A stretch of DNA of 64,000 bases from positions 124,001-188,000 of the forward strand of contig NZ_PIPW01000002.1 of the NCBI RefSeq assembly GCF_003987215.1. Direction: 5' to 3'. This DNA comes from Pseudidiomarina halophila. Lineage in GTDB: Bacteria > Pseudomonadota > Gammaproteobacteria > Enterobacterales > Alteromonadaceae. A program made the position numbers and the translations under genes. Below, one piece after another: positions 40,580 to 56,751 of the stretch (within the stretch, counting starts at the first letter, position 1; each line of letters starts with the position of its first letter). A model generated the notes under the pieces. It saw only the letters and a program-made list of their open reading frames with translations. It searched no databases and was not told the DNA's origin.

Positions 40580-41815
40580 TTAAACGTCATGCCAACGCTT
40601 AAAAATAAGCGATGTATTAATACCACCAAAAGCAAAGTTATTGGACATTACGTAATCTGTTGCAAACTCGCGTGGCTGTCCCTGAATATAATCCAACTCG
40701 GCACATTCGGGATCTCTATTTTCCAGGTTCACCGTAGCGGCGAACCAATTGTCGTTCATCATGTTGATGCTGGCCCAGGCTTCGATAGCACCACAAGCCC
40801 CAAGGGTATGACCTAAATAGCTTTTGAGTGAGCTAATCGGCATGCGCGGACCAAACACCGCAGCGGTGGCCTGACTCTCAGCAATATCACCACGATCGGT
40901 GGCGGTGCCGTGAGCATTAACGTAACCAATGTCTGCGGGAATAAGCTCAGCGTCTTTCAGAGCCAGGCGCATGGCAACTTCCATTGTCGCTGCTGTCGGC
41001 TGAGTGACATGCGCGCCGTCAGTATTAGTGCCAAAGCCAACTATTTCAGCCAAAATGGTGGCACCACGTTCTTGTGCATGCTCCAGCTCTTCCAGAATAA
41101 AGGTGCCGGCGCCTTCGCCAATGACCAGGCCATCACGATCCCGATCAAAGGGCCGTGGGGAGGCCGAGGGACTATCATTGCGAGTACTGGTAGCGTACAA
41201 GGTATCAAAAACCACGGCCTCTGAGGCGCATAATGCCTCTGCGCCGCCGGCGACCATGACTTTTTGCTTGCCGTACTTTATGGCTTCGAAGGCGTAACCC
41301 AGCGCTTGGGACGACGAGGTACAGGCTGAGCTGGTGGTATGCATACGGCCCTTGAGACCAAAAAACACCCCGACATTAACCGCGGTGGTATGCGCCATAC
41401 TTTTGATGTAAGTAGTCGCGTTGACGCCAGACATATCACCATTAGCGAGCATGTTGCCAAGCACTACCATTTCATCCGTGCTACCGGTCGAGGAGCCATA
41501 CGCAACCCCGCAGCGGCCGTCGCGGATACTGGGGTCGTTCAGCAAACCAGCGTGCTCAAGCGCAAGTTCCGTAGCGCGAGTGGCCATGATGCTGACCGTA
41601 CTCATCGAGCGGACGTCCTTACGGGAATAATGCTCAGGGCGCTGAAACGGAGGTTGAATAGGTGCTGCCAGGCGCGTATTCAAACCTTCAAAACGATCCC
41701 ATTCGGGCATAGTGGTGACGGCGTTCTGGCCGGCCGCTAAGCGGGCTTTAAATTCATCCCAGCTCGAGCCAAATGCAGTTAAACAACCTGTCCCGGTGAC
41801 GACAACGCGTTTCAT
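40580..41815 (-). CDS. Beta-ketoacyl-ACP synthase (KS, FabF-like), last gene of the aryl-polyene-type cluster
   Basis: Condensing enzyme for chain extension. 411 residues with a complete Cys-His-His triad: Cys165 in SSACTSSSQ, His in NAHGTATDRGD and His in LGHTLGACGAIE. The N-terminus RVVVTGTGCLTAFGSSWDEF is FabF-like. By position and family it corresponds to one of the two KS (ApeO/ApeR) of known APE loci. Its start overlaps the ketoreductase stop (TAATG). Two KS plus a Cys-less partner in one locus is the APE-type II PKS composition. Confidence 0.9.
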   Translation of the reverse strand: MKRVVVTGTGCLTAFGSSWDEFKARLAAGQNAVTTMPEWDRFEGLNTRLAAPIQPPFQRPEHYSRKDVRSMSTVSIMATRATELALEHAGLLNDPSIRDGRCGVAYGSSTGSTDEMVVLGNMLANGDMSGVNATTYIKSMAHTTAVNVGVFFGLKGRMHTTSSACTSSSQALGYAFEAIKYGKQKVMVAGGAEALCASEAVVFDTLYATSTRNDSPSASPRPFDRDRDGLVIGEGAGTFILEELEHAQERGATILAEIVGFGTNTDGAHVTQPTAATMEVAMRLALKDAELIPADIGYVNAHGTATDRGDIAESQATAAVFGPRMPISSLKSYLGHTLGACGAIEAWASINMMNDNWFAATVNLENRDPECAELDYIQGQPREFATDYVMSNNFAFGGINTSLIFKRWHDV

Positions 41816-42543
41816 TACACTAGCCCACCGTTTACTGAGAACACTTGTCGGGTGATGTAAGCCGCAGAGTCCTGGAATAAATAGCCAACCAGTCCGGCAA
41901 CTTCTTCAGGTTTACCGGCGCGTTGCATAGGGATCATCGAGAGGATTTGATCCTGATGCTCAAGTTCATTGGTCATGTCAGTTTCAATCAGCCCCGGTGC
42001 CACGCAATTTACCGTGATTTTGCGTTTAGCCAACTCCAGTGCCAGTGCTTTGGTGGCGCCAATAACGCCAGCCTTCGAGGCACTGTAATTGACCTGCCCG
42101 CGATTGCCGGCGATGCCGGAAACCGAAGCTATGGTGACAATACGACCGCCTTTGCGGGTACGAATCATCGGCATAATAAGCGGATGCAGGACGTTGTAAA
42201 ATCCATCAAGGTTGGTGTGCACGACCTGATCCCAGTCTTCGCCAGTGAGTGCAGGAAAGGCTCCGTCACGGGTCACTCCCGCATTACATACCGCGCCATA
42301 ATAAGGTCCATGGGCTTCAATATCCGCTTCAATGACCGTAGCTGCCGCAGCGCGGTCGCTGACATCAAAACACAGTAAGCTGGCGTTGCGGCCAAGTGCC
42401 TCGATCTCGGCCACGACCGCAGCGGCGGACGCTTTATCACTGCGACAATGTACCGCAATATCGAAGCCATCGGCGGCGAGTGTTAATGCGATGGCGCGAC
42501 CAATGCCTTTGCCAGACCCCGTTACTAAGACGCGATTACTCAT
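41815..42543 (-). CDS. 3-oxoacyl-ACP reductase (FabG-like ketoreductase) of the APE-type cluster
   Basis: NADPH-dependent reduction of the beta-keto group after each condensation. 242 residues from the ATG at 42543, chosen because AAGGAA lies 6 nt upstream and the FabG start SNRVLVTGSGKGIGRAIAL follows; a longer open frame exists but overlaps the dehydratase. Catalytic SDR residues: Asn in CNAGVT, Ser in ASVSG and YSASKAG (YxxxK). It overlaps the upstream dehydratase gene by 8 nt. By family and position it is the ApeQ-type KR. Confidence 0.9.
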   Translation of the reverse strand: MSNRVLVTGSGKGIGRAIALTLAADGFDIAVHCRSDKASAAAVVAEIEALGRNASLLCFDVSDRAAAATVIEADIEAHGPYYGAVCNAGVTRDGAFPALTGEDWDQVVHTNLDGFYNVLHPLIMPMIRTRKGGRIVTIASVSGIAGNRGQVNYSASKAGVIGATKALALELAKRKITVNCVAPGLIETDMTNELEHQDQILSMIPMQRAGKPEEVAGLVGYLFQDSAAYITRQVFSVNGGLV

Positions 42544-42988
42544 AATTTTCCTTAATAAAAGCTGCTTCATCGGGCGGCTGGAAAACATTTAAACGTGCTT
42601 CAGCAATGATCTCGCCCTGTTCTTCAATACGACAGTCAAACACGCTAAGGCCCGAGGATTCGACATGGATTTCTTCGGCGAAAACGTCATAACACACACC
42701 GCAAAGAAACACGTCCCGCTGGCAGCGGTACTTGCGTGAGCCAAGCAAAAAACCAAGCTTAATAGCTTCATTGCTCTCATGGTGACGACTTCCGGCAACG
42801 GCGGCGACGGTTTGCGCCATAAATTCGATGCCGGCGTGGGCCGGAATTCCGTTCAGTTGCTCGCGGAAAAACAGACTATCGCGGGTTAAGGTCGTCTGAC
42901 AGTGGGCACTGATGCCATCGGCGCTGACCACTGTATCAATTAAACGCATTGGTGCCCGGTGTTTTATCAAATCGTCAAGCGCGACCAT
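42536..42988 (-). CDS. 3-hydroxyacyl-ACP dehydratase-like hotdog protein of the APE-type cluster
   Basis: A 150-residue single-hotdog protein, with IPAHAGIEFMAQTVAAVAG at about 48-66, which places the FabA/FabZ-type catalytic His before the central helix; MVALDDLIKHRAPMRLIDTV is the usual N-terminal approach. It should remove water from the 3-hydroxyacyl intermediate to give the conjugated double bond. The cluster has a second hotdog protein at 52514, as in known APE loci (ApeI and ApeP types). Six nt separate it from the upstream KS gene. Confidence 0.85.
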   Translation of the reverse strand: MVALDDLIKHRAPMRLIDTVVSADGISAHCQTTLTRDSLFFREQLNGIPAHAGIEFMAQTVAAVAGSRHHESNEAIKLGFLLGSRKYRCQRDVFLCGVCYDVFAEEIHVESSGLSVFDCRIEEQGEIIAEARLNVFQPPDEAAFIKENYE

Positions 42989-42994: not shown

Positions 42995-44212
42995 TTATTC
43001 TCCGTTTTGTGCCTTGCTAAACACCAGAGCAACGTTGTTCCCGCCAAAGGCAAAAGAGTTGCTCAGACAGTGTTCGATTGCGGTGGTTGCTGTCGTTTTT
43101 TGCGTATCATACAGCGAAATCGGTGCTAATTCAGGGTCAATCTGGTTATCCCACACGTGCAGCGGTAACTCACCCCTCTCACTTCGTAAAGCGAGCCAAC
43201 ATAAGCCTGCCTCGATGGCCCCTGCGGCGCCCAGCGTGTGGCCGGTTAAGGCCTTGGTCGAGCTGGCCGCAACCTGCGCGGCACCGACTGCAGTAATGGC
43301 GTTACTTTCCATGGCATCGTTCAACGGCGTGCCGGTACCGTGCAGATTAATATAACCAAGCTGTTGCGGACTGATGCCGGCATCGGCTAAAGCGGTGGTG
43401 ATGGCGGCAATTGCGCCGCGGCCCCGGGGTTCGGGAGCCGTCATGTGATAGGCATCGGAACTATGCCCGGCGCCGGTTAATGTGACTGCCGGAGCCTTGG
43501 TCGCTGACGGCTGAGTGGTTAAGTCTTTGGTGGCGACAAACAGCGCCGCACCCTCGCCAATATTGATACCGTCGCGATTGCGACTAAATGGCCGGCAGTA
43601 GCTTGCCGAAATCGACTCCAGCGCATGAAAGCCATTGAGTGTAAGGCGGCACAAAGAATCAACGCCCCCGACGATGACGACGTCAGCCAGATCGGCGCGG
43701 AGCATGGCGCGCGCACTCATCAGCGCCCGTGCACTTGACGAGCAAGCCGTGGAAATACTGTAGGCAGGACCTGAAACACCGGCAAGATCAGCGATAAACT
43801 CGGCCGGAGAGTACATTTCCTGCATGCCATAGTAAAAATCATCTGGTAGTTGCTGATGAGCCTGGTAATGCGCGAGCGCCGCTTCACCTTCGCGGATCCC
43901 TGATGTGCTTGAGCCAATAATCACCGCGATCCGCTCAGCGCCATACTGCTGTCTAAGTGCGTCGACGGTGGTGGCGATTTGCGCGTACGCCGCTGCCGCT
44001 AGCTGGTTGTTACGGGTGGCCATAGCTGGCACTAAATCTTGCAACGGCGGCAATGCAGCATCGTTGACCTGCCCGGCAATTTGCGGTTCACCTTGATTAA
44101 TCGTCAGGGCACAAGGCTGCATACCTGCCCGTGAGCCACGCAAAGCATTTTGCCAAACTTCAGGGGCATCAGCACCCAGGGCGCAAAGAATACCTAAGTC
44201 AATCAGCTGCAT
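42995..44212 (-). CDS. Second beta-ketoacyl-ACP synthase of the APE-type cluster
   Basis: A 405-residue KS with Cys157 in STACSSSARAL, His in NLHGTGTPLND and His in LTGHTLGAAGAIEA, so the triad is complete. The start at 44212 is preferred: AGGAG lies 9 nt upstream, and the sequence MQLIDLGILCALGADAPE begins the KS fold; the 18-codon extension overlaps the DUF3261 gene further. Known APE systems use such a KS for priming or elongation together with a Cys-less partner. The gene overlaps the preceding DUF3261 gene by 14 nt. Confidence 0.9.
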   Translation of the reverse strand: MQLIDLGILCALGADAPEVWQNALRGSRAGMQPCALTINQGEPQIAGQVNDAALPPLQDLVPAMATRNNQLAAAAYAQIATTVDALRQQYGAERIAVIIGSSTSGIREGEAALAHYQAHQQLPDDFYYGMQEMYSPAEFIADLAGVSGPAYSISTACSSSARALMSARAMLRADLADVVIVGGVDSLCRLTLNGFHALESISASYCRPFSRNRDGINIGEGAALFVATKDLTTQPSATKAPAVTLTGAGHSSDAYHMTAPEPRGRGAIAAITTALADAGISPQQLGYINLHGTGTPLNDAMESNAITAVGAAQVAASSTKALTGHTLGAAGAIEAGLCWLALRSERGELPLHVWDNQIDPELAPISLYDTQKTTATTAIEHCLSNSFAFGGNNVALVFSKAQNGE

Positions 44213-44783
44213 CAGGTTGGACTCCTGTTTCTTCAAGGGTGCGTAACTGTAGTGAGTAACCCGCACTATGGTGCTGTAAAATGGTGATGTCAGCTTCTGT
44301 TCGGGTGGACCAGATCAGTTGTTTATCATCACTTATCACCCGTCTGCCATTCGCGGTCGCGGTTATGCTCGCGCCTTGCAAATGGCGCTGCAGCTCGGTC
44401 AGTGGCCAGCGTTGCAACTGCATATCGGCAACGATAGCGCGCGCTAACTGAGGTTGGTCGAAAGGCGCGATGCCGGTCACTGTTATGGGTTGTTGCTTAC
44501 CCAGCTCAACCCGCCATAACTCCTGACCCAGCGGTGAAAGCCCGACCATCACAATCTGCTCGGCGCTCAGTAAGCTCGATACCAGCAAGGTCCGGGACTC
44601 CTGTTCGGGGTGTGACCATAGCACCTGATGCAGGGTCTGGGTGGCGGGGCCGTTCCAGGAGGACTGCAATTCAAGCTGCACATTTTCCGTCAGCTGTACT
44701 TTCGGGTTCGTGGATGTGGGCAGCGTCTGGCAGCCGCTGAGCAGCAACGCGGCGACTACCAGACTTAAGATTCGGTTTGGCAT
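44199..44783 (-). CDS. DUF3261 family lipoprotein of the APE-type cluster
   Basis: A 194-residue outer-membrane-type lipoprotein: leader ending LLLSGCQ (Cys18), then a beta-rich domain with LLVSSLLSAEQIVMVGLSPLGQELWRVE and QLARAIVADMQLQRWP. DUF3261 proteins are regularly found in APE gene clusters but have no proven function; a part in handling or anchoring the polyene lipid at the outer membrane is inference. It overlaps the FAD oxidoreductase gene by 19 nt at its 5' end. Confidence 0.85.
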   Translation of the reverse strand: MPNRILSLVVAALLLSGCQTLPTSTNPKVQLTENVQLELQSSWNGPATQTLHQVLWSHPEQESRTLLVSSLLSAEQIVMVGLSPLGQELWRVELGKQQPITVTGIAPFDQPQLARAIVADMQLQRWPLTELQRHLQGASITATANGRRVISDDKQLIWSTRTEADITILQHHSAGYSLQLRTLEETGVQPDAAD

Positions 44784-46015
44784 AATTCGACTAATACCCG
44801 CAAGCGGCGCTCAGTTTCGCACACATAAGGATTTTCACTGTCCCAGGCATAACCGGCAAGAATGGAACATATCATGGCTTTGATCTCGTTCTGCTGCTGG
44901 TGATAAAAAATCACATCCTGAAAACGCGTATCGTACCAGCCTTTGACAAAACTTCGAAAGGTGCTGATACCTTTACGCAGGGGCACCGTGTAGGCCTGTT
45001 CCCAGTCGACATCTGCGCCATTAAGTTGCTGCAGCACCAGCGGTACCGCAAGGGAGGAGGACTTTAAGGCGATAGTAACACCCGAGGAGAATACCGGGTC
45101 CAGGAACTCACCCGCATTGCCGAGTAGCGCGAAGCGGTCACCATGCAGCCTGCTGACGTTGGCAGAATAACCGGTGATCATCTGCTCTGGCCGTGTCACT
45201 TCGTATTCACCGAGTACGGTGAGCAAATGAGGCTCTTCATGGACCCGTCGCCACAAGGCTTGCCCGGGAGTGTCATCGTCGTCAAAGTACTCCGTGCCGC
45301 CAACCACACCGAGACTGGCGGTGCCATCGGCGAAAGGTATTAACCAAAACCACAACTCGGGTTCGGTCGGATGTACTGTTATCAGAATTTTATTGCGATC
45401 GAACTGGCCGCCTGGCAGTGTTGTTTTTACGTGACAAAATGCGGCCTGCCGCACAGGAAAATCCGACGGGTATTCCAATTCCAGCAAGCGCGGTAAAACC
45501 CTTCCAAAGCCACTGGCGTCGAGCAGGAATCGCCCCTTCAGAGATTGTTGTTGATTATCTTTTTCAATGGCGACCTGAACCTCGTTCGGGTCATCAAAAT
45601 CTACCGCGGTAACCGTAAAACCATGGTGGACTTCAGCACCATAAGCACTGGCGCCCGCGGCTAACAGCTGGTCGAAATGCTCGCGTTTAACCTGATAGGT
45701 GGTACTGGGACCCGCGGAAGATTTATTTTGAAAATCGAAAAGGCTGTGTTCACCATTTCGATAAAAAGCTGCACCATTTTTATACTGGAAGCCGAATTTC
45801 TCCGCCTGAGCAACCACGTCATCAAGCAACCCGGCTTCGGCGAGGTAGGTCATGCACTGAGGTAACAAGCTCTCGCCAATCGAAAAACGGGGAAAATAGC
45901 TCCGCTCGATCACCACCACGGACTTCCCCGCCTGGGCGAGTAGCGCGGCGGCAGTAGCACCAGCTGGGCCGGCGCCAATGATAATGACGTCGTAGGAGTC
46001 GCGCTGAAATGGCAT
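44765..46015 (-). CDS. FAD-dependent oxidoreductase (halogenase/GGR-like) of the APE-type cluster
   Basis: A 416-residue flavoprotein. The dinucleotide fold is VIIIGAGPAGATAAALLAQAG (from about residue 9), followed by FPRFSIGESLLPQC, a motif of the tryptophan-halogenase/geranylgeranyl-reductase group, and DRFALLGNAGEFLDPVFSSGV (FAD-binding GD-like region). The halogenase Lys motif WxWxIP is absent as such (LWFWLIPFADG), so a hydroxylase or dehydrogenase role is more likely. The start at 46015 is preferred over the upstream 17-codon extension because AGGATAAC lies just before it. Role in the polyene head group is inference. Confidence 0.85.
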   Translation of the reverse strand: MPFQRDSYDVIIIGAGPAGATAAALLAQAGKSVVVIERSYFPRFSIGESLLPQCMTYLAEAGLLDDVVAQAEKFGFQYKNGAAFYRNGEHSLFDFQNKSSAGPSTTYQVKREHFDQLLAAGASAYGAEVHHGFTVTAVDFDDPNEVQVAIEKDNQQQSLKGRFLLDASGFGRVLPRLLELEYPSDFPVRQAAFCHVKTTLPGGQFDRNKILITVHPTEPELWFWLIPFADGTASLGVVGGTEYFDDDDTPGQALWRRVHEEPHLLTVLGEYEVTRPEQMITGYSANVSRLHGDRFALLGNAGEFLDPVFSSGVTIALKSSSLAVPLVLQQLNGADVDWEQAYTVPLRKGISTFRSFVKGWYDTRFQDVIFYHQQQNEIKAMICSILAGYAWDSENPYVCETERRLRVLVELCQTES

Positions 46016-46019
46016 GCTG

Positions 46020-48305
46020 TTATCCTGGCCCGGAGGCGGTTTGCGATGGCTTGATACAGGGTGCAATCAGCGCGCTAACCAGCACCCCAACCAACACGAC
46101 ACTGCCAAAGGCTGCAATCGCCGGAGTTGCGCTAAAGCTCAGCGCACCGAAGGCAATAGCGGTAGTAAGTGCTGACAAACTAATCGCTTGCAGGGCATGT
46201 TCGCGACGCACGTCACTGGCACAGAAGATGCCATAGTCGAGACCTAACACCAGTACCAGTATGGCGCCGACCCAATGGAAGACATTGAGCGCCTGAGTGA
46301 ACATGGCAACCAGCAACGCGGCACTGAGCGCAATAGTGATAACCGCTATGACCTGTAGGCTGATAAACGCCCGCTGTGGCCAGGGCGCACTACGTCGCAA
46401 ACGCCAGCTTAGCAGTGCTGCTGCGATGAGCAGTAAGCCCGCCAGCCAGATCCGCAGTTGTTGCCGGTGCTCACCGAGCGCCGATGATGCTTGCAATAAT
46501 GGGTTATAAAGCTCAACCGCTGGATAGTTCTGCAATTCGTTAATCAGGGCAACGCGGTCGGTGATACCGGCAAGGCGAACCACGCCAATATAGCCGGTTG
46601 CCGCATCGGCGGCGGGCTGCTCCTGCGCCATCGGATAAACAAACAGCGAGTAAAGCGGATGTTCGGCTAAGCCGGCTATGTCAGGCTGCGGCGTATCGAT
46701 ACCCAGCCATTGCAGGTAGCTCTGACCTTCAGGTTGTTGCCACAGGGCGTGTTGCGCTGTGATGACCGCTTGCTGTTGTGACGGCGGCAGCACGTAATCA
46801 AACAGGCTTTGCCAACGACTGATGAGGCCCTGCTGTTGCCATTGAGGTAAAAGGGTCGCGATCTCAGCGTACGCAGCATTAAGTCGGGCTTCATTGTCGC
46901 CGTTAATTAACAGGACATCGGCATCGAAATAGACCTGAGTTTTGTCGCGCAGCAGCTTTTCTTGTTCGAGTAAACTTGCGGGTGAGCTGGCGAGTTGCCG
47001 CACCGAGTCGTTACTTTGGTGCTGATACAGCAGAGCCGTGGCCAGTAGTACCGCAAGAACAACCAGCAGCCAGGGAGTAAGCGCGGACTGATTAAAGCTG
47101 TAGCTCTGCGCGATACGTTGGTGTAGACGTTGCCAGCCGGGGGCAGGCGCCTTCCAGCTGCGCCAGCGCGGGGTAAGATAGATCACCAGCACTAACACGC
47201 ATAACAACGCTGCTGCCATGAATACCCCCAGTTGCTGTAATAGCGGTAAGGGTAAAAAGATAAGCAGTGCGTAACCAACTATGGTGGTCAGTCCGCCCAG
47301 CCATAATGCTGGTACCACCGCCCGCCAACTGCTGGCGCCATGACTTGCGGCGATACTGGCATGAAAAACGTAATCGATACACAAGCCGATAAGCGTAGTG
47401 GCGAACACCAGCATCAACACATGAGGTTCAGCAAACAGTAGCATCACTACGCTAAACCCAACCAGACCCGCGACCGTTATCACCAGCAGGGTAAATAGCA
47501 AATGCTGCAGTGAACGGAAAATCAGGATAAACAATAGCACCACCATGACCAGCGATAAGCCGCCAAACCAGGTCATTTCAGCTTTGGCCTGATCGGCCGC
47601 GGCGCTGGCATGGAAAATCAGGCCACTGCGAGCCAGCTCCAGCGTATCAAACGATTGTTGTAACCCGTTGGTGAACTGCTCTATTTTACGTACCACCTGC
47701 TGGGACTCGCTCTGGCTCAAAGCATCGGCCCCACTGGTCAAGGCAACCAGTAATTCGTAGTTGGCACCTTCACGCACGTAAAATGGCGCATCAAAGCTAA
47801 AGCCCGGCATTAAATCCGGCAATTGCTCGACATAGGTTTGAGTCAGCAACAAGGGATCAGCGGTGATATCGACCAACACCGGTGCGGGTTGTTGCAGTTT
47901 CCGCTGTGCTGCGTTGATCAAATGCTGTGGTGCGTTCCGCAGCTGTTGCCGGTCCGCCGGTGTGGCGAAACTACCCGAATACTTTCGATAAAAATCAAGC
48001 ATGGGCGCCAGGGCTAATTGCGAGTTAGGAGTAATTTCCGGTTGGCCAGCGGCAAGTTCCAGCAAACCAGACTCCACGGCTTCGCGTAACGCCTCAGCAT
48101 CTTGTGCCGGCACCTGCAGCCACAGCAGGATCTGTTGTTCGTTCGGTTGCTGGCTTGACTGATAAGCGCGGTGATAGGGGTTGGCATCGGCTGGCAAGGT
48201 GTCGAGCAGACTGCTCTGCCAGCTGGTGGTTTGTGCCTGGTAAGCGAACAAACCAAGCAACGCAACGAAGCCAATCACCATCAAGCTGAGCCAGCGCTTC
48301 CACAT
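46020..48305 (-). CDS. MMPL/RND-type exporter of the APE-type cluster
   Basis: A 761-residue inner-membrane protein with an N-terminal TM, a periplasmic loop, five or six TMs (about 230-400), a second loop and a closing TM block (about 610-755): the half-size RND/MMPL duplicated layout. It probably moves the lipidated polyene across or out of the inner membrane together with the LolA-like protein two nt upstream. Equivalent exporters occur in APE and related loci. The stop lies 4 nt before the FAD gene start. Confidence 0.88.
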   Translation of the reverse strand: MWKRWLSLMVIGFVALLGLFAYQAQTTSWQSSLLDTLPADANPYHRAYQSSQQPNEQQILLWLQVPAQDAEALREAVESGLLELAAGQPEITPNSQLALAPMLDFYRKYSGSFATPADRQQLRNAPQHLINAAQRKLQQPAPVLVDITADPLLLTQTYVEQLPDLMPGFSFDAPFYVREGANYELLVALTSGADALSQSESQQVVRKIEQFTNGLQQSFDTLELARSGLIFHASAAADQAKAEMTWFGGLSLVMVVLLFILIFRSLQHLLFTLLVITVAGLVGFSVVMLLFAEPHVLMLVFATTLIGLCIDYVFHASIAASHGASSWRAVVPALWLGGLTTIVGYALLIFLPLPLLQQLGVFMAAALLCVLVLVIYLTPRWRSWKAPAPGWQRLHQRIAQSYSFNQSALTPWLLVVLAVLLATALLYQHQSNDSVRQLASSPASLLEQEKLLRDKTQVYFDADVLLINGDNEARLNAAYAEIATLLPQWQQQGLISRWQSLFDYVLPPSQQQAVITAQHALWQQPEGQSYLQWLGIDTPQPDIAGLAEHPLYSLFVYPMAQEQPAADAATGYIGVVRLAGITDRVALINELQNYPAVELYNPLLQASSALGEHRQQLRIWLAGLLLIAAALLSWRLRRSAPWPQRAFISLQVIAVITIALSAALLVAMFTQALNVFHWVGAILVLVLGLDYGIFCASDVRREHALQAISLSALTTAIAFGALSFSATPAIAAFGSVVLVGVLVSALIAPCIKPSQTASGPG

Positions 48306-48861: not shown

Positions 48862-49271
48862 TTGCTGCGCTCCACGCCGAGCTTCTCAAACAGAATGTCG
48901 GGCGATTCGAATAACATTTCCTGACTGGCGGTTTCCACCGCAACCTGAATGCTGGTGGCTTTGGTGAGTACCTGAGCGGAGTCACAGCAACGAATGACAT
49001 AATCAATGCGTAGCCGGTGCTCCCACTCAACTAAGTTCGCGACCACTTCAATGTTCTGGCCATAACGCGCGGATTTGACGTACTTCAGCCGCAGATCGAC
49101 GATTGGCCAGATATGGCCGTTCTTCTGCATGACGGGATAATCATAGTCAAACTGGCGCAGCAGTTCACTGCGCGCCATTTCCAAATACTTTATATAATGA
49201 CCGTGCCACACGACATGCATGGCGTCGACGTCAAAAAACGGCACGTTAATCACTAGCTTTGTTTGGTACAT
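48858..49271 (-). CDS. Acyl-CoA/ACP thioesterase (4HBT-type hotdog) of the APE-type cluster
   Basis: A 137-residue hotdog thioesterase with the 4-hydroxybenzoyl-CoA thioesterase motif DVDAMHVVWHGHYIKYLE at about residues 14-31, whose Asp is the usual catalytic residue. It may proof-read or release stalled chains during synthesis, the role proposed for its APE counterpart. It starts one nt after the ammonia-lyase stop and its stop overlaps the LolA-like gene. Confidence 0.88.
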   Translation of the reverse strand: MYQTKLVINVPFFDVDAMHVVWHGHYIKYLEMARSELLRQFDYDYPVMQKNGHIWPIVDLRLKYVKSARYGQNIEVVANLVEWEHRLRIDYVIRCCDSAQVLTKATSIQVAVETASQEMLFESPDILFEKLGVERSK

Positions 49272-49272: not shown

Positions 49273-50826
49273 CTACTCCTCGTACAAGGCCCAGGGTTGT
49301 TGCCGGACTTTTCTCAACCAGTGGCGCAATTCGTGCTCCAGCGGCCTATCTTCGGTCAGCAATTCGAACTCACTGGTGATATCGCTCAACATTTGCTCCA
49401 AGGCTGCAGCAGGTTTGCGCATGTTCTGCTTTTGTTGGCGGCGCAAATGGACGCCTTGGCAGGTGGCCAGCAGGGTTGCTACCACAACTTGTTCAGTCAA
49501 TTCCAGTACCCGTATACAGTCCCGGGCAGCGATGGTACCCATGCTCACCTTGTCCTGATTATGACACTCGGTCGAGCGGGAGAATACACTGGCAGGCATG
49601 GTCAGTTTTAATGCCTCTGCAGTCCACGCCGAACAACCAATTTGCACCGCTTTAAAGCCATGGTTAATTGAGCGCCGTTCGGCGGTTGCGGCAGAAAGAT
49701 TAGCCGGCAAGCCATTATTCATTTTGGTATCCATCAACAACGCCATTTGCCGATCATGCAAATCAGCCAGATTGGCCACTGCAGTTTTCATCGAATCCAT
49801 CACCATGGCGATATGGCCGCCATAAAAATGCCCACCATGTAACACATGTTCGCCGATGCCATCGATGATTGGATTGTCATTAGCGCTATTGAGTTCATTT
49901 TCGATGGTTTCGCGGAACCAGGGCAGGGCATCACGGAGGACGCCGATGACGTGCGGAGCACAACGAATAGAATAACGGTCCTGCAGTCGATCGGAGTTGC
50001 GGGGGTGTTCAACATGGTTAATATCATGCTGGATCCAACGCGCAATTTGTTGCTGTCCACGGTGCGGTTTAACTGCAAACAGTAATTCGTCGAAATGGTT
50101 GGCGTTACCGTCAAGGGCGATGCTGGCAAGCGCTGTTACCCGTGCTGAGAGTCGCGTTAAGTACTCTGCGCGCTGCCAGGCCTGGCAGGCGAGTGCCGTC
50201 ATGACGGCGGTACCGTTCATGATGGCAAGTCCCTCTTTGGGCCGTAGCTTCATGGGTTTCAGGCCGAGTTGCTGAAAAGCTTCGGCGCTGTTTATCTGCT
50301 CACCTTTAAACCGGACATCACGCTCGCCAATAATGGCGCCAGCCACGTAAGACAATGGGGTTAAGTCGCCACTTGCGCCCACGCTGCCTTCTTCCGGGAT
50401 AACAGGTAACAGGTCGTGATTCAGCATCAACACCAGACGCTCAAGTAGTTCCCAGCTCACACCGGAGTAGCCTTGCGCAAGTGAGCACAAGCGCGTTGCC
50501 AAAATTGCCCGGGTCGCTGGCGCGTCGAAATAAGCGCCTAAACCACAACCATGAAAGCGGGTGAGATGAATGGGTAGCTCATGCACCAGTTCAGCAGGAA
50601 CAGTTACTGTGCAACTGTCACCATAGCCGGTGGTAACGCCATATATGACGCCGTCTTCCTGCAACAGGGTGTCGAGGAAACGGGTGCCTGCGTCGATGCG
50701 GGTTCGCAGCGCCGGATCATCGCTAAGCTGAGCGACAATCTGTTGCTCAGCATTGGTACGCGTAAGAGTAATAATATCTTCGATGGTTATGCGCTTGCCA
50801 CCAAAGAGAACCGGAGAAGTAGGCAT
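49273..50826 (-). CDS. HAL/PAL/TAL family aromatic amino acid ammonia-lyase in the APE-type cluster
   Basis: An enzyme that uses the MIO cofactor to eliminate ammonia from an aromatic amino acid. The MIO-forming Ala151-Ser152-Gly153 lies in VGASGDLTPLSY and the catalytic Tyr62 in YGVTTGYGDS; 517 residues fit the bacterial family. The selectivity pair is Phe91-His92 (TRFHGCGLG), unlike His-Leu of TAL or Ser-His of HutH. Lying between the acyltransferase and thioesterase genes, it most likely makes a (4-hydroxy)cinnamate starter for the polyene; His as substrate is less likely because no other hut gene is near. Confidence 0.9.
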   Translation of the reverse strand: MPTSPVLFGGKRITIEDIITLTRTNAEQQIVAQLSDDPALRTRIDAGTRFLDTLLQEDGVIYGVTTGYGDSCTVTVPAELVHELPIHLTRFHGCGLGAYFDAPATRAILATRLCSLAQGYSGVSWELLERLVLMLNHDLLPVIPEEGSVGASGDLTPLSYVAGAIIGERDVRFKGEQINSAEAFQQLGLKPMKLRPKEGLAIMNGTAVMTALACQAWQRAEYLTRLSARVTALASIALDGNANHFDELLFAVKPHRGQQQIARWIQHDINHVEHPRNSDRLQDRYSIRCAPHVIGVLRDALPWFRETIENELNSANDNPIIDGIGEHVLHGGHFYGGHIAMVMDSMKTAVANLADLHDRQMALLMDTKMNNGLPANLSAATAERRSINHGFKAVQIGCSAWTAEALKLTMPASVFSRSTECHNQDKVSMGTIAARDCIRVLELTEQVVVATLLATCQGVHLRRQQKQNMRKPAAALEQMLSDITSEFELLTEDRPLEHELRHWLRKVRQQPWALYEE

Positions 50827-50829: not shown

Positions 50830-51771
50830 CTAGCTGTCCTCGTGCTGTTGCCAGAAATTAAAAAAATTAAACCACTGATAAGGATAGCGTAAACACAAGG
50901 CTTCCATCTGTGCGACATACTGTCCGAGTATTTTTTGCAGGGCCTGTTGACGCTCGCGGCGTGGCAACGTCAGTTGTTCGGCGACCAGATCAAGATACAA
51001 ATGGTAACGGGAGCGTTTTGGGTCACGTAAACAAAACAGAAAATAGACCGGGCATTCTAAAATGCTGGCCAGCACCCAGGGACCGATTGCGAACGCAGCG
51101 GGCTTGCCTAAAAAGTCATGGGTCACACAATGATCCGGTTGGGTTACCGAAACCCGATCACCGACAATGACCACAAACTCACCGTCATCAACCCGTTCGC
51201 GCAGTTTAATTGCCAACGCCATATCGATTTCGCTGACCTGGATCATATCGACACTGACGTTGGCATTGAGTTCACGCAGGGCACGATTGAACGACTGTGC
51301 GTGCTCGGTAAAAACTAAGACATTCATGCGTTTTTTATAGCTTGAGCTGGCCACTGCACGGGCCACTTCGAGATTGCCCAGATGACTGCCGATAAGGATA
51401 CCGCCTTGCGGGCTGTCCTCCAGATCACGAAAATGGGTGTTGCCGCAATTTTCAACGTGGCGTTTACCCACCTTACCAATCCAGGCATCTGTTTTCGCCA
51501 AAGAAGCCAGTCCGAACTGCCAAAAATGTTGCAGACCATGACGCCAACCGGGTCGACGCTTAAATGGTGAGGCGCTACCGGCATAGATGTGTAATTGACG
51601 CAGGTAGGCAAGGGATGCACGGCGTGCTTTGGTGCCGGTAATGAAAAAATAGGCGATCACCGGCGCCAGCAGAACCCGCATGACGATATGTCCACCGTAC
51701 TTGTAGGCGCGCAGCAGAATAAGGATACCCCAGTAACTGCCACGCTCTTCGGTTTCTGCCCAGTGTTGCAT
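50830..51771 (-). CDS. LpxL/HtrB-like acyltransferase of the APE-type cluster
   Basis: A 313-residue lysophospholipid acyltransferase-type protein; the H(x4)E motif is IGSHLGNLEVA (about 132-142). The start HWAETEERGSYWGILILLRAY is common to acyltransferases of APE loci. It is expected to acylate the lipid anchor of the polyene. In several APE loci this domain is fused to the GT2 domain; here the two are separate genes that overlap by one base. Confidence 0.87.
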   Translation of the reverse strand: MQHWAETEERGSYWGILILLRAYKYGGHIVMRVLLAPVIAYFFITGTKARRASLAYLRQLHIYAGSASPFKRRPGWRHGLQHFWQFGLASLAKTDAWIGKVGKRHVENCGNTHFRDLEDSPQGGILIGSHLGNLEVARAVASSSYKKRMNVLVFTEHAQSFNRALRELNANVSVDMIQVSEIDMALAIKLRERVDDGEFVVIVGDRVSVTQPDHCVTHDFLGKPAAFAIGPWVLASILECPVYFLFCLRDPKRSRYHLYLDLVAEQLTLPRRERQQALQKILGQYVAQMEALCLRYPYQWFNFFNFWQQHEDS

Positions 51772-52520
51772 CAGGGCCTCCGCTTAAACTTGCGAAGGAT
51801 CAGCAATGGCGCCCGCCACAACATGCCAAAGACCAGACGGGTGTGCATTTTGGTGATACACCAGTTATCGGCAAAGCCGCGAAAATGTGACTGACCCCCC
51901 TCCGGATAAATAACCTGAGTTTTGATGAAATGTATAGGAACCTCGCGCCAATACATGCGCACCATAATCTCAATGTCGAAGTCCATACGCTCGCCGATGG
52001 ACTTGGTTTTCATGGTCGCCAGAGTCGCTGCAAGGGGGTAGACCCGGAACCCGCACATGGTGTCTTTTACTGCCAGTGACAGGGTTTCAACATGGACCCA
52101 GAAATGAGTGATTTGCCGGCCAATTTTGCGCGCAAGGGGGATGGACTCGTCATACTGAGGCTGGCCACTGATGAGCGCCTGGGGACGGGCTTTTGCTGCG
52201 GCGAGAAACTTCGGTATGTCATTGGGATTATGCTGGCCATCGGCGTCAATCTGCAGTGCGTGGGTCAGCCCCGCATCGGCAGCCAGTTGCAGGCCATGCA
52301 TGACTGCTGCACCCTTACCCCGATTCTCAGGCAGCGTCGCGACCAGCACCTGATCGAGGAAATCGGGTTCGAGCATGCGCCGAAGCTCTTGCTTAGTCGC
52401 TTGGTTAGAGCCATCGTCGACAATCAAAATGGGAAAATTAAATGGCAACAGCTGCTCAACGGTTGCGCGGATAGTTTCGTGATGATTGTAAATCGGGATC
52501 AAAAAACAACACTTCAGCAT
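51771..52520 (-). CDS. Family 2 glycosyltransferase of the APE-type cluster
   Basis: A 249-residue GT2 with ILIVDDGSNQATK (nucleotide-binding DD near residues 35-37), LQIDADGQHNPND (DxD metal site near 92-94) and MCGFRVYPLAA, the dolichyl-phosphate-mannose-synthase-like layout without a C-terminal TM block. It probably adds a sugar that links the polyene to a lipid carrier. It overlaps the hotdog gene by 7 nt and the acyltransferase by 1 nt. Confidence 0.88.
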   Translation of the reverse strand: MLKCCFLIPIYNHHETIRATVEQLLPFNFPILIVDDGSNQATKQELRRMLEPDFLDQVLVATLPENRGKGAAVMHGLQLAADAGLTHALQIDADGQHNPNDIPKFLAAAKARPQALISGQPQYDESIPLARKIGRQITHFWVHVETLSLAVKDTMCGFRVYPLAATLATMKTKSIGERMDFDIEIMVRMYWREVPIHFIKTQVIYPEGGQSHFRGFADNWCITKMHTRLVFGMLWRAPLLILRKFKRRP

Positions 52521-52900
52521 AACTCACCTTCCGTGGTAGTGGCTTCAGGATAAATTAACCGGCCAGACGAAAAAGCGCGTTCGCCGGCACTGTAGCGGAA
52601 CAGTACGCAATCCTCACGTTTACGTTCCAAAGTTAAGGTTACTTTAGCGTTAGGCAGAATCATATCGTTGAATTTGAGCACTTCAATGTGTCGCACACTG
52701 GGCGCAGTCCCCCACTGCTCGGCGGCTAACTGAATCGCCCAGTCAAGCTGAGTAACGCCCGGTAAGATTGGCGCTTCGGGGAAATGCCCCTGCAAATAAA
52801 TGCAGTCGGGCGATAAGCTGAACTCGACCTTTAGCAGCGGATGCCCCTCGGCGGTAACCGCTGCTTCATGGCTGGAAAAATCTGGAAAGTTCGCGTTCAT
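52514..52900 (-). CDS. FabZ/FabA-like dehydratase (hotdog) of the APE-type cluster
   Basis: A 128-residue hotdog protein with GHFPEAPILPGVTQLDWAIQLA at about 38-59, the His-bearing FabZ-type active-site helix, and a beta-rich C-terminus. It is the ApeI-type dehydratase by position and family and would dehydrate 3-hydroxyacyl-ACP, possibly with the second dehydratase of the cluster. It overlaps the acyl-activating enzyme gene by 4 nt. Confidence 0.88.
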   Translation of the reverse strand: MNANFPDFSSHEAAVTAEGHPLLKVEFSLSPDCIYLQGHFPEAPILPGVTQLDWAIQLAAEQWGTAPSVRHIEVLKFNDMILPNAKVTLTLERKREDCVLFRYSAGERAFSSGRLIYPEATTTEGELC

Positions 52901-54258
52901 GAGCTGCCTGCCGCCGTTGAGTCAGAGTGAAAAATTTGCTGTAAAGCTGCCTGGGTGAGTTTACCTGCTTCATTGTACGGCAATCGCGTCACGTAGCGAA
53001 ATTTACGCGGCAGCACGACAGTTTCGAAACGTTGATTCAGATGCTGGCGCACTACCTGGCGTAAAGCGAATTTGCCTTCCTGTGCCAGACGGCGCTGTCC
53101 CAGTTCGTTAAGCTGCACCACCAAGCCTAGCTCGACGCGTTTGTCGCCGTCCATAACGCAGCAATGGGCCTGCGCTACCCAGTCGAGCTGGGCAGTAAAC
53201 TGTTCAACTTCAGTTAAGGATAAGCGCTTCTCGGCCAGTTTAATAATACGATCGGCGCGACCCTCAACGATAAAGGTGTCCGCTGCCATAAAATGGACCA
53301 AATCCGCTGTGGTATACCAACCATCGCTGTCGATGTCAGCGGCTCCCAGATGCGGGGAGCGCAGTTGCAGTTGCCCGTTTGCGTCGGCCTGCGCTTTGAT
53401 ACCCGGAAGCAGGCGGAACGGTTGTTTCGCGTGCTGGCGCTGGCGCCAGGCAATGCCGCCGGTTTCGGTACTACCGTAGACTTCGATTGGACTGGCGATA
53501 GCTGCAGCGACACAACGGGCGGGTACGCTTTCATGCAGGGGGCCGCCGGAGGAAAATACAGCGCGTAGCTTACTGCTGAATTCGCGCAGGTCGAGATCCT
53601 GAGTAAACCGCTCCAGTTGTGCGGGACTACTAACCAGGGCATAGGGTTGCTGGGTTTGCCGCTGAAAGGCCAGCCATTGCTCTGGATACTCAATGCGCTT
53701 GGCGGCAACCTCGCGACCGGTACACAACGGCCAGAGCACGGTGAACAGCAAGCCGTAAATATGTTGATGAGTGATCGTGGAAACCACCTGGCAGTCACCG
53801 AGCTGCGCGCCAAAAGTTGTTTCCAGCGTAGCCACCTCAGTAAACAGCTGGCGCAGCGATTTGTGTACAGCTTGTGGGACGCCACTGGAGCCTGAAGTAA
53901 AGAGCACAAGTTCCGCGTCGAGATTACCCGTGAGTACATGGGGTGCGTGCAGAATTGTGGCTGATGCTGGCGTAGGAACTGCGGTGTCGACCAACTCTCT
54001 GTCGGCCAAACGAGCGGCCAGACGTAGGGTTTCGGGCCGACCATTGCCCGGCAGTAGTGGCGTACGCCCGGCCGCGATGAGGGCCAGCAGCCAGATGACA
54101 AAGCTACTGCGCTGCTGGTGATACACCAGCCAGGTCTGCTCCGGCTGCCGTTCGACATAGGCTTGTGCGGCGGCGACCCGCTGCGCAAGCGCGGGCGCAA
54201 GTTCCAGCTGCCAGTGCTTAGTGTCGCTTTTTAACCACACGTCGGATACTCCATTCAA
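52897..54258 (-). CDS. Acyl-CoA synthetase/AMP-ligase of the APE-type cluster
   Basis: An adenylate-forming enzyme of 453 residues, slightly short for the ANL family. The P-loop-like motif is LVLFTSGSSGVPQAVHKS (about 115-133), followed by VYGSTETGGIAWRQ and DGWYTTADLVHF; the C-terminal lysine region reads LPRKFRYVTRLPYNEAGKLTQ. It should activate the aryl starter and load it on ACP. The ATG at 54258 overlaps the membrane-protein gene by 41 nt; a later GTG at 54240 is also possible. Confidence 0.88.
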   Translation of the reverse strand: MNGVSDVWLKSDTKHWQLELAPALAQRVAAAQAYVERQPEQTWLVYHQQRSSFVIWLLALIAAGRTPLLPGNGRPETLRLAARLADRELVDTAVPTPASATILHAPHVLTGNLDAELVLFTSGSSGVPQAVHKSLRQLFTEVATLETTFGAQLGDCQVVSTITHQHIYGLLFTVLWPLCTGREVAAKRIEYPEQWLAFQRQTQQPYALVSSPAQLERFTQDLDLREFSSKLRAVFSSGGPLHESVPARCVAAAIASPIEVYGSTETGGIAWRQRQHAKQPFRLLPGIKAQADANGQLQLRSPHLGAADIDSDGWYTTADLVHFMAADTFIVEGRADRIIKLAEKRLSLTEVEQFTAQLDWVAQAHCCVMDGDKRVELGLVVQLNELGQRRLAQEGKFALRQVVRQHLNQRFETVVLPRKFRYVTRLPYNEAGKLTQAALQQIFHSDSTAAGSS

Positions 54259-54766
54259 CTGCCATTAAGAGACCCATCAGCAGATAGGCAATTAAGCCGT
54301 TATAAAGTGCCCACAGTTCCATATCGCCAAGCTGGACGGTCCACCAGGCAATACCGCCATTAAGGGCAAAAAATAGCGCCCATACCAAGGTGACGCGCTC
54401 GGTGTAACGCACTGCAGCAGGTGATAACGGGCCTTCCATGAGGGTTGCCAGACGGGTAATGACGGCCGGCGGGCGCAACAGTGAGAAACAGAAGAGCACC
54501 AGTAAACTGGCATTCATCCACACCGGATAATACAGCACGCCAGTAAGTGGATCGGTGAACCAGGCGACCAGTACCACCATGACTAAGGCTGCTAAGGCGA
54601 GGTAACTGCGCGGGTTGTTAAAGCCTAAGCTGATAGCTTGCAGCAGCAGGAGTGCGGCCAGAGTAAAAAATAACTCGCGCATGAAGCCGTGTTGCGTCAG
54701 CCACCACACCAGGAAGGGATATCCGATAAGTAAAATCGTGGTGGCATAACGCAGCAGGGCAGACAT
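54218..54766 (-). CDS. Small polytopic membrane protein of the APE-type cluster (COG4648-like)
   Basis: A 182-residue inner-membrane protein with about five to six hydrophobic helices, from the N-terminal YATTILLIGYPFLVWWL to ALYNGLIAYLLMGLLMAVEW before a basic C-terminus (SIRRVVKKRH). Members with this size occur between the ACP and AMP-ligase genes in APE clusters (ApeG position). Function is not known; it may hold the synthase complex at the membrane. The stop overlaps the AMP-ligase start. Confidence 0.85.
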   Translation of the reverse strand: MSALLRYATTILLIGYPFLVWWLTQHGFMRELFFTLAALLLLQAISLGFNNPRSYLALAALVMVVLVAWFTDPLTGVLYYPVWMNASLLVLFCFSLLRPPAVITRLATLMEGPLSPAAVRYTERVTLVWALFFALNGGIAWWTVQLGDMELWALYNGLIAYLLMGLLMAVEWSIRRVVKKRH

Positions 54767-54769
54767 AGG

Positions 54770-55018
54770 TTAACCGTGAATAAGTTTGTAGACTTCGTCG
54801 ACGACATCGCGGACGGTACGTACGGCTTTAAATGCGTCCGGACTAATTTTCTTACCGGTGATTTCCCGTAACTTCACCACCAGATCGACGGCATCGATGC
54901 TATCCAAATCAAGATCTTGATAGAGGTTAGCGTCTAAACTGATGTCTCCCGCATCGACTTCAAAATCCTCCTGTAGGATCTCTTCGAGTTGAGCGTAAAT
55001 CTCTTCTTTCGTTTGCAT
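54770..55018 (-). CDS. Acyl carrier protein 2 of the APE-type cluster
   Basis: An 82-residue acidic ACP. The phosphopantetheine attachment site is Ser40 in DLDLDSIDAVDLV. The flanking helices IYAQLEEILQEDF and VKLREITGKKI fit the four-helix fold. It lies 12 nt downstream of the first ACP gene. It carries starter or growing polyene chains (ApeE/ApeF type). Confidence 0.95.
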   Translation of the reverse strand: MQTKEEIYAQLEEILQEDFEVDAGDISLDANLYQDLDLDSIDAVDLVVKLREITGKKISPDAFKAVRTVRDVVDEVYKLIHG

Positions 55019-55030
55019 TGCGCTGGCTAC

Positions 55031-55297
55031 CTATCCACGTTGGCTGACAATGAAGTTTGCTAAACTGTTTACACTATAAAAATGCACTTTGGTTTCAGCT
55101 GAATTAGCATCGAGTTTCACCTCGAATTTCTTTTTTATCGCCAGACCTAATTCCAAAGCATCAATTGAATCCAGGCCTAAACCGTCGTCTTCATCACTGA
55201 ATAACGGAGCGTCGTCCTGAATATCAGCAGGGCTGACATCTTCTAAATCGAGCGACTCGATAATGAGCTGCTTAATATCCTGTTTTAGCTGTTCCAT
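55031..55297 (-). CDS. Acyl carrier protein 1 of the APE-type cluster
   Basis: An 88-residue acidic ACP with attachment Ser44 in LGLDSIDALELG, preceded by an acidic insert SDEDDG. It overlaps the acyltransferase gene by 26 nt at its 5' end, showing translational coupling. The two ACPs differ clearly in the acidic insert and C-terminal half, so they may carry different intermediates. Confidence 0.95.
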   Translation of the reverse strand: MEQLKQDIKQLIIESLDLEDVSPADIQDDAPLFSDEDDGLGLDSIDALELGLAIKKKFEVKLDANSAETKVHFYSVNSLANFIVSQRG

Positions 55298-56078
55298 TAC
55301 TCTCTACTACCTTGTTGTAAAAGTTCTCCAGGTCACGGGTTAACTGGCGTGCTGCGAGACTATATTTTTCATTTGAGTCGAGGTACGGCTGCACCTCAAA
55401 CTCCCTTAAATAAGAAATTTTCAACGTTGGCTTCTGTGCTGGCGCAGCGTACCAGGGCGCATTTTTTAGTAAAGTCGGTGGTGTGCAAGTTACCTTAAAT
55501 GCGGCCATAGGTGTCGCGGTCCGAAGCGCTAAGTTTGCAGCGCCACGCTGAAATTTTAAATCCTGACCAGGCGTGCTGCGTGTCCCTTCGGGGAAAATAA
55601 TCAGATTATTTCCCCGCTCAAGTGACGCCTTACAGTCGGCAATTAAGCCGTCGGGGTCCCCATTGCTGATATACCCCGAAGATTTTATCACACCGCGCAT
55701 AAACGGATTTTTCCACAAGTGAGCTTTAACTACACAATCGCCGTTCGGGATGAAAGAAATCAGCGCGACCACATCAATTAAACACGGGTGATTAGCAATA
55801 ATGATTTTACCACGCAGGTTCTGTGCATGTGCAGCTGCTGGAAAAGCAAAATTAAAAACGCCCATAAAGCGCATAAACCCGATGAAAAATTTAAAGCTGT
55901 TTTGTACCAGTCGGCGGGATTTCTGCTCTGCCAGCAGCCGATCGCCCTTAGCAGTTAAGCGCAAAACCGGCAGCGCTGTCAGGGGAATCAGGAGGCCGCT
56001 TATACCGAAAACGGCAAAGCAAATGCCGGTCGCTAAGCGCCGCCATGTGTGCTGTAAAAACTGAGTAAATTTACCCAA
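55272..56078 (-). CDS. PlsC-like lysophospholipid acyltransferase of the APE-type cluster
   Basis: A 1-acyl-glycerol-phosphate acyltransferase family protein. Motifs: NHPCLID (HxxxxD, His and Asp catalytic) and FPEGTRST (substrate-binding), with an N-terminal hydrophobic segment. The TTG at 56078 is preferred as start (268 residues): GGAG lies 8 nt upstream and the gene then overlaps the KS-like stop by just 8 nt, in line with the rest of the cluster; a longer open frame to 56174 would overlap it by 104 nt. It probably attaches the polyene to a lipid (ApeD position). Confidence 0.85.
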   Translation of the reverse strand: MGKFTQFLQHTWRRLATGICFAVFGISGLLIPLTALPVLRLTAKGDRLLAEQKSRRLVQNSFKFFIGFMRFMGVFNFAFPAAAHAQNLRGKIIIANHPCLIDVVALISFIPNGDCVVKAHLWKNPFMRGVIKSSGYISNGDPDGLIADCKASLERGNNLIIFPEGTRSTPGQDLKFQRGAANLALRTATPMAAFKVTCTPPTLLKNAPWYAAPAQKPTLKISYLREFEVQPYLDSNEKYSLAARQLTRDLENFYNKVVESNGTAKTGY

Positions 56079-56751
56079 AATTCCAGCTCCAGAGGTGTTT
56101 TCCTGTGCGCATCTGAACTTCAGATCCGCCCCCCTGAATACTAGCATGCAATTGTTTAGCCGTGGCGATGACATCGTCTTCTTCGCTATTAAACCGAAGC
56201 TGGCGCGTTAACTTTAGCTTTAAGGGCTGCGCGGGCTCCTTGCTCAGCAAGGCGGCAAAAGCGATTCCTTGTGCCGGACTCTGACATTGCTGATCGTATG
56301 GGTGGGGTGGTGGCTCGTCGGCATAAACCACGAGAACCTGTGGATGTTCCTGTAACTGCAATGTGGCTTCAAGCCAGCCACTTGGCAGGGTCTCGGCACC
56401 GGCGCCAACAGTGGTCATGCCTTGTTGATTGTCGACCAGCATACTGAATTGACCAAGTACGGCATTGTTCACTGACAGACAGAATTGCGTCGGAGATAGC
56501 AATTCACCCGCCACCAGCTCGTTGAGTAAGCGAATGGTACGCTGTAAATCGCCATGGCGGCTGGCAAGGACAACCGGCGCATGGGCGGCCCCTGGATGTT
56601 GTTCAATTACTTCGAACAGCGCAGCTAACAACAGCTTCGCATAGCTGCTCAGCCGCCGTCGGGTCGACGCAGGGATGGACTTTAGGGCGGCGCTCGGAGC
56701 GGACGTTGAGTCACTCAGGTGGAGCGCACTTGCGGCAACGTAACTGGTCAT
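56071..56751 (-). CDS. Ketosynthase-like protein without catalytic Cys (chain-length-factor type), first gene of the APE-type cluster
   Basis: A 226-residue truncated ketosynthase N-terminal-domain protein (Ketoacyl-synt_2-like). VVLASRHGDLQRTIRLLNEL (about 60-79) and FCLSVNNAVLGQFSM (about 90-104) are recognisable; the latter is the thiolase nucleophile region, in which no Cys stands at the active-site position and an Asn-Ala pair is found. It fits the ApeC-type chain-length partner of the condensing KS. The start at 56751 is preferred; the longer frame begins with TTG at 56856. It lies 119 nt from the palindromic operator. Confidence 0.78.
   Translation of the reverse strand: MTSYVAASALHLSDSTSAPSAALKSIPASTRRRLSSYAKLLLAALFEVIEQHPGAAHAPVVLASRHGDLQRTIRLLNELVAGELLSPTQFCLSVNNAVLGQFSMLVDNQQGMTTVGAGAETLPSGWLEATLQLQEHPQVLVVYADEPPPHPYDQQCQSPAQGIAFAALLSKEPAQPLKLKLTRQLRFNSEEDDVIATAKQLHASIQGGGSEVQMRTGKHLWSWNFG

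Follow-up and report, generated by a model that had tools for sequence, protein, structure and literature searches.

An aryl-polyene operon of Pseudidiomarina halophila carrying a predicted tyrosine ammonia-lyase, and the occurrence of its relatives with photoactive yellow protein

The stretch of DNA analysed here (the window: 64,000 nucleotides of Pseudidiomarina halophila, contig NZ_PIPW01000002.1, positions 124,001 to 188,000, from a genome of 2.6 Mb) contains a compact operon of 19 open reading frames (ORFs), all on the minus strand, that runs from an ApeC-like start codon (ATG at 56751) to an ApeR-like stop codon at 40580 and includes a gene for an aromatic ammonia-lyase (Table 1). Adjoining genes either overlap or are separated by no more than 12 nt, with several of the larger overlaps depending on mechanically chosen start codons. 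An earlier note on this DNA had described nineteen overlapping genes on one strand and assigned them to the aryl-polyene (APE) type, and both statements are borne out, the latter by gene set, gene order, profiles and motifs. The operon encodes a ketosynthase (KS) with its chain-length factor (CLF), a second KS, a ketoreductase, two hotdog dehydratases, two acyl carrier proteins (ACPs) and an acyl-ACP ligase, together with a transport and anchoring set composed of an MMPL exporter, a DUF3261 lipoprotein, acyltransferases, a GT2 glycosyltransferase and, more weakly recognised, a LolA-like protein. The ketoreductase and ligase motifs are both intact, and the KS partner described in the earlier note as lacking the cysteine indeed has no TACSS-like motif, the KS cysteine motifs being present in ApeO and ApeR. 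The functional labels given there agree with our profiles and motifs, except that the LolA-like gene is a weak match and the small membrane protein has none. Plain fatty acid synthesis was considered and rejected in view of the ApeP- and ApeI-specific profiles, the CLF and the exporter set. Judged from their sequences, the 19 genes form a yellow-pigment operon of the APE class that is well formed and unremarkable, its lyase-bearing type being one already known.

Several described systems are close to this operon. In APE_Vf of Vibrio (Aliivibrio) fischeri ES114 (BGC0000837), compared here through its descriptions, a type II polyketide synthase set is likewise accompanied by an ammonia-lyase, a gene that two papers list as typical for V. 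fischeri-type clusters (PMC5851621, PMC8719888), and the window cluster has an ammonia-lyase gene within it as well. Two Aliivibrio loci in our set (L075 and L077; labels beginning with L and G are ours for loci and genomes) have the gene order of the window including the lyase, although both carry an ApeB methyltransferase, which the window lacks. APE_Ec of E. coli CFT073 (apeA to apeR), compared through Table 1 of its description, agrees with the window in functions C to R and in how these are ordered, whereas it has ApeA, ApeB and a fused ApeJ; the window has neither A nor B, encodes the glycosyltransferase and acyltransferase separately, and adds the lyase and an FAD enzyme, neither of which is listed in that table (PMC8253772). 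In the flexirubin cluster of Chitinophaga pinensis (FlxA, FlxY) an ammonia-lyase and a ligase are described as starting an aryl polyene, with FlxA using tyrosine (PMC3992019). The window lyase scores 335 bits against a FlxA cut-off of 700, however, and whereas flexirubin has a dialkylresorcinol, DarA and DarB were not recognised among the 19 window proteins, to which that search was limited.

The earlier note also saw no methyltransferase in the window, which holds for ApeB, whose queries gave a best E value of 0.28 there; an every-ORF scan for other methyltransferases was not made. No ApeB was found in the whole genome either, in a search that had no positive control, although at other loci this query does find matches (29 of 95), and the idea that ApeB is encoded elsewhere was rejected on that empty search. 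With an ApeA-like query the best that the window offered was E 0.023 at a place outside the cluster, which is not counted as a match. A scan for promoters and terminators gave no more than was found in shuffled sequences.

Table 1. Genes of the APE operon of P. halophila and the convergent gene next to it (positions in the window).
Gene product	Coordinates	Strand	Basis
ApeC-like chain-length factor (KS partner)	56071..56751	-	PF13723, 163 bits; without TACSS-like motif
ApeD-like PlsC acyltransferase (start codon uncertain)	55272..56174	-	PF01553, 53 bits
Acyl carrier protein, ApeE-like	55031..55297	-	NF006617, 80 bits (above cut-off); DSI attachment site
Acyl carrier protein, ApeF-like	54770..55018	-	NF003757, 127 bits (above cut-off); DSI attachment site
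Small membrane protein at ApeG position	54218..54766	-	no Pfam/NCBIfam match; homologue between F and H genes in 73/73 APE loci
ApeH-like acyl-ACP ligase	52897..54258	-	PF00501, 66 bits; TIGR02372 4-coumarate ligase, 114 bits (below cut-off 334.7); TSGSSG motif
ApeI-like dehydratase	52514..52900	-	PF22818, 50.5 bits
GT2 glycosyltransferase, one half of ApeJ functions	51771..52520	-	PF00535, 72.5 bits
LpxL-type acyltransferase, other half of ApeJ functions	50830..51771	-	PF03279, 40 bits
MIO aromatic ammonia-lyase, predicted tyrosine ammonia-lyase	49273..50826	-	PF00221, 539 bits; active-site residues; PYP linkage
ApeK-like thioesterase	48858..49271	-	PF13279, 36 bits
ApeL-like LolA-type protein	48307..48861	-	no Pfam match; NF053544 flexirubin LolA2, 26 bits (below cut-off 125)
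ApeM-like MMPL exporter	46020..48305	-	PF03176, 24 bits
FAD enzyme, halogenase-like type (start codon uncertain)	44765..46066	-	PF04820, 85 bits; 3nix, 338 bits; PltA, 145 bits; WFWLIP and FLDPVFSSG
ApeN-like DUF3261 lipoprotein	44199..44783	-	PF11659, 77 bits
ApeO-like ketosynthase	42995..44266	-	NF006618, 499 bits (above cut-off); TACSSS
ApeP-like dehydratase	42536..42988	-	PF22817, 75 bits (above cut-off)
ApeQ-like ketoreductase	41815..42588	-	TIGR01831, 406 bits (above cut-off)
ApeR-like ketosynthase	40580..41815	-	NF006587, 728 bits (above cut-off); KS Cys motif present
Phosphopantetheinyl-transferase-like protein (gene converges on ApeR), which may serve the ACPs	39941..40573	+	three phosphopantetheinyl transferase Pfam models, all below cut-off; homologue inside fetched APE stretch in 17/95 loci

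The lyase and the APE genes travel together well beyond this species. When named genomes were scanned with 11 aligned lyases, at least 592 stretches were obtained, 579 of those listed encoding relatives, and the best 80 of them, each fetched separately, form our set of lyase loci; the closest named relatives among the matches listed are those of Pseudidiomarina homiensis and Pseudidiomarina sp. CB1, both at 82% identity. APE genes surround the lyase at 73 of the 80 loci (including L104, which ends at a contig edge); the remaining seven are L029, L044, L049, L066, L078, L080 and L096. With the FAD gene left aside, the detected genes keep the window's order on one strand at 72 of these 73 APE loci (L083 is the exception), and the lyase lies between the ApeJ-type and ApeK genes at 72, no more than 400 nt from both at 70. 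With 73 of 80 loci and an order kept in 72 of 73, the arrangement is far beyond chance. Among 148 genomes of the order, the lyase (called at a match of 662 bits or more, the next-best match being 384 bits) occurs in 46 and an ApeP profile match in 60, all 46 falling within the 60, and neither is present in 88 (Fisher 4e-26, for genomes that are not independent); the two lie on the same contig, 5.1–8.3 kb apart, in 45 of the 46. The implication of the earlier note that an ammonia-lyase is an oddity in such a cluster is thus not sustained, as the lyase accompanies ApeP in 46 of 60 genomes and is named in the V. fischeri-type descriptions cited above. The 14 genomes with ApeP and without the lyase (15 stretches) comprise 11 with an APE cluster minus the lyase, two with partial clusters (G104 and G019) and one with none (G088). 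Among the 73 APE loci with the lyase, 25 have an ApeB homologue, as do 4 of the 15 stretches without it, and because of the co-occurrence at the former we conclude that lyase and methyltransferase are not mutually exclusive.

The window lyase is a full-length 4-methylideneimidazol-5-one (MIO) enzyme with Ala-Ser-Gly. Its active site was read from an alignment with 1gkm, a histidine ammonia-lyase (HAL), and 2o78, which is labelled a putative HAL and which we take to be a mutant of the R. sphaeroides tyrosine ammonia-lyase (TAL). The selectivity pair is Phe91-His92 and the motif 2 residue is Gln424. Among 81 lyases (the window and the 80 loci) Ala-Ser-Gly is present in all 81, the first selectivity position is Phe (77) or Tyr (4), the second is always His, and motif 2 has Gln in 80, one row being gapped. 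The MIO residues, the residues we take to be catalytic, and Gln instead of Glu in motif 2 are in keeping with a TAL.

Photoactive yellow protein (PYP) uses p-coumarate as its chromophore, and the lyase is read here as a tyrosine enzyme because PYP needs p-coumarate and relatives of the lyase sit with PYP. In Aliidiomarina (L066, L078) and Arsukibacterium (L044, L080) pyp is followed by a ligase gene and then by a relative of the lyase, with PYP model scores of 204–205 bits (cut-off 143) and 4-coumarate ligase model scores of 271–289 bits (cut-off 334.7) at L066 and L044. Relatives in pyp operons or standing alone in PYP genomes have 63–76% identity, whereas the window lyase itself is part of a pigment operon; in a lyase tree, from which L087 was omitted for its early stop, the window lyase falls in one starred 14-row set with the PYP-operon and solitary lyases. 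The PYP cut-off is passed by 10 of 196 genomes of the family (a match of 60 bits in G244, below the cut-off, was left uncounted), and each of the ten, like the PYP-free G309 and G260, encodes exactly two aromatic lyases, one of which scores 622–637 bits and was taken for HutH. The non-HutH lyase adjoins pyp by coordinates in G183, G220, G248 and G330 (those of G183 and G330 have 33% identity to the window lyase), and in six of the ten, five of them Idiomarina, the window-type lyase is the sole aromatic lyase besides the HutH-type one. It lies within the pyp operon in G322, inside an APE cluster in G290 and G326, where a lyase-free pyp-ligase pair is found elsewhere in the genome, and alone in G171, G242 and G270, genomes without an ApeC match. 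Residues Tyr42, Glu46 and Cys69, in what we take to be the usual PYP numbering, are kept in the nine PYP sequences checked.

The genomic context of the lyase and the presence of PYP are correlated. Among 45 lyase-bearing genomes of the family, PYP was found in 2 of the 41 with the lyase in APE context and in all 4 with the lyase outside it (Fisher p 1e-4). A test at the level of loci took all 7 off-cluster or broken loci and 15 of the other 73, of which 21 were searched (L049 was left out), and found PYP with 5 of 5 loci without nearby APE core genes and with 1 of 16 others, L096 being counted among the 16. The off-cluster cases represent few lineages of non-independent genomes, such that the p-values overstate independence, and the two sets overlap (L029 is G242, L078 is G322 and L027 is G290). 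A further PYP genome of the order, G017, has the lyase and an ApeP match on different small contigs and a ligase adjoining PYP. The solitary lyases occupy the chromosomal place that the APE cluster has in G290 and G309. That of G171 groups with the lyase of Idiomarina piscisalsi, which has an APE cluster and no PYP match, and looks like retention in place; those of G242 and G270 are 69% identical to the G290 lyase, most shared neighbours being about 80–98% identical, and here a photolyase-lyase pair in place of the lost cluster looks like a replacement. The notion that all three are in-place remnants was cut back accordingly, the identity of the G242 and G270 lyases being too low relative to their neighbours. 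In close relatives of P. halophila, the chromophore with which a photoreceptor senses light thus appears to come from an enzyme of this type.

Our best explanation, to which we give a probability of about 0.72, is that the locus is a V. fischeri-like APE operon in which the lyase is a TAL and p-coumarate primes the polyene, as in flexirubin. The lyase most likely deaminates L-tyrosine to p-coumarate, as the PYP linkage strongly, if indirectly, suggests, and the ApeH-like ligase would load this starter onto an ACP. ApeO/ApeC, ApeR, ApeQ and ApeI/ApeP would then extend p-coumaroyl-ACP with malonyl units to give a conjugated polyene with a 4-hydroxyphenyl head, and the glycosyltransferase, acyltransferases, thioesterase, LolA-like protein, MMPL exporter and DUF3261 lipoprotein would provide for lipid attachment and transport to the outer membrane. 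The ring of the pigment would be unmethylated. The predicted starter of the E. coli pigment is 4-hydroxybenzoate (4-HBA), and APE initiation is described as genus-dependent (PMC8253772). Because p-coumaroyl-ACP is what 4-hydroxybenzoyl-ACP becomes after one elongation cycle, the lyase could substitute for the first cycle, which would make the pathway independent of chorismate, and both starters would give the same type of pigment. The cinnamate-type starter proposed in the earlier note therefore needs amending: a lyase-derived starter is supported, but the PYP link points to p-coumarate from tyrosine and not to cinnamate from phenylalanine.

Several observations weigh against a TAL whose product primes the polyene. 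The ApeH-like ligase scores weakly as a 4-coumarate ligase (114 bits against 334.7), and the genome encodes UbiC, so that 4-HBA is available. ApeR, which initiation in X. doucetiae is reported to require (PMC8253772), is retained at 72 of the 73 lyase-bearing APE loci (the other is cut by a contig end), so that skipping the first cycle would have left no mark on the gene set. A PYP profile search gave no match in the genome of P. halophila itself. By the Watts rule a TAL should have His first in motif 1, where the window lyase has Phe; FlxA of C. pinensis, however, is described as lying outside this rule with a HAL-like motif 1 and a TAL/PAL-like motif 2, the mixed signature also seen in the window lyase, and as favouring Tyr over Phe by a factor of 1010 and not acting on His (PMC3992019). 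Finally, Pseudoalteromonas flavipulchra, which has TAL homologues, is reported to release trans-cinnamic acid (PMC3853003), a hint of some activity on Phe if one of these homologues is an APE lyase.

The UbiC and ApeR findings would suit a pathway like those of E. coli and X. doucetiae, in which 4-HBA primes the polyene; p-coumarate from the lyase would then be an alternative or late unit or have some other use. The X. doucetiae ApeH is described as loading 4-HBA, with ApeR serving initiation (PMC8253772), and our ApeH sequences separate lyase-bearing from lyase-free clusters incompletely: a tree of 72 and 11 such rows (83 in all, L087 and L098 omitted) has two label changes, which none of 500 shuffles equalled, a pattern that fits co-inheritance and is not evidence of specificity. 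We nevertheless consider 4-HBA priming unlikely, given that the lyase sits between the same two genes at nearly all APE loci and that none of the 46 lyase-bearing genomes of the order is without an ApeP match, whereas a gene with no part in the pathway should have gone missing in more cases. A phenylalanine ammonia-lyase (PAL), giving a pigment with a phenyl head that is unhydroxylated or hydroxylated later, would be in line with the cinnamic acid of P. flavipulchra and with the Phe that opens the selectivity pair, a residue found there in certain PALs (PMC3992019), but is quite improbable, since PYP requires p-coumarate, this lyase type is the only non-HutH lyase in six PYP genomes, and the window lyase shares the starred tree set with PYP-operon and solitary lyases. 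A second HAL with a catabolic role is hardly credible: although His occupies the second selectivity position and the HutH model TIGR01225 gives 396 bits, this score is below its cut-off of 539, Gln replaces the Glu of HAL in 80 of 80 aligned residues, and genes of this type are placed in pigment and photoreceptor operons. A separate lyase of 33% identity (C4:114424), taken as HutH on account of its Ser-His pair and its Glu, both as in HALs, is moreover encoded elsewhere in the genome, and a HutH duplicate was rejected on these grounds.

Other features of the operon and its surroundings may be noted. The phosphopantetheinyl-transferase-like gene beside ApeR is an addition to the gene list of the earlier note. 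The ApeH-like ligase is unusually divergent, at 47–48% identity to the nearest Pseudidiomarina ligases, whose accompanying lyases are at 82%, and the LolA-like gene has tblastn homologues at 40 of the 80 lyase loci. Homologues of the FAD enzyme occur at 60 of the 80, 16 of these 60 on the opposite strand, and its WxWxIP and FxxPxxSxG are what we take to be halogenase motifs; the enzyme also matches flavin halogenases. Since a gene for a halogenase is found in xanthomonadin clusters (PMC3691225), the present pigment may, by analogy, contain halogen. Immediately upstream of the operon, genes for a PadR-family regulator and a membrane-protein-like product start divergently (56918-58670, plus strand); the regulator was rejected as a cluster member, having no homologue in the 95 other loci at E 1e-5. 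At several loci ApeR is followed by a gene for a 144-residue secreted-looking protein (L025, 20284-20718 on the plus strand; L027, L030, L031), with homologues at 18 of the 95 loci and no Pfam match. The G+C content is 53–55% in the cluster (40001-56000) against 48–52% in the remaining window, and of seven genomes sampled from the genus two have the lyase, that of P. halophila included; with this patchy presence the cluster may be mobile or often lost. In Idiomarina, photolyase-like genes, recognised by eye from sequence and not by profile, adjoin the APE locus or the solitary lyase (L029, 7142-9957; L175, 17812-19170; L176, 682-2040), possibly forming a light-protection neighbourhood.

An APE cluster with an ammonia-lyase is thus of a kind already known, and what is new is the genomic case for the lyase as a tyrosine enzyme of a lineage shared with PYP. 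A full-text search, largely outside of which subscription papers lie, showed among the papers listed no published experiments on the product of a proteobacterial APE lyase. Assignment as a TAL predicts the starter for lyase-bearing clusters, which are present in 46 of the 60 ApeP-positive genomes sampled from the order. We think it fairly probable that in the Idiomarinaceae a single TAL lineage provides for two ends, a pigment resembling a sunscreen and a receptor for blue light. In Idiomarina the lyase of the APE cluster would then be the source of p-coumarate that PYP otherwise lacks; on loss of the pigment cluster it would have been retained or replaced, or else have been transferred to the pyp operon. 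The window lyase would be of this lineage, although its own genome has no PYP. A 2025 study of pyp operons describes seven instances among 113 without a TAL gene and leaves the TAL source open (PMC12826048); the lyase of APE clusters offers an answer to where TAL activity may come from when the pyp operon lacks its own.

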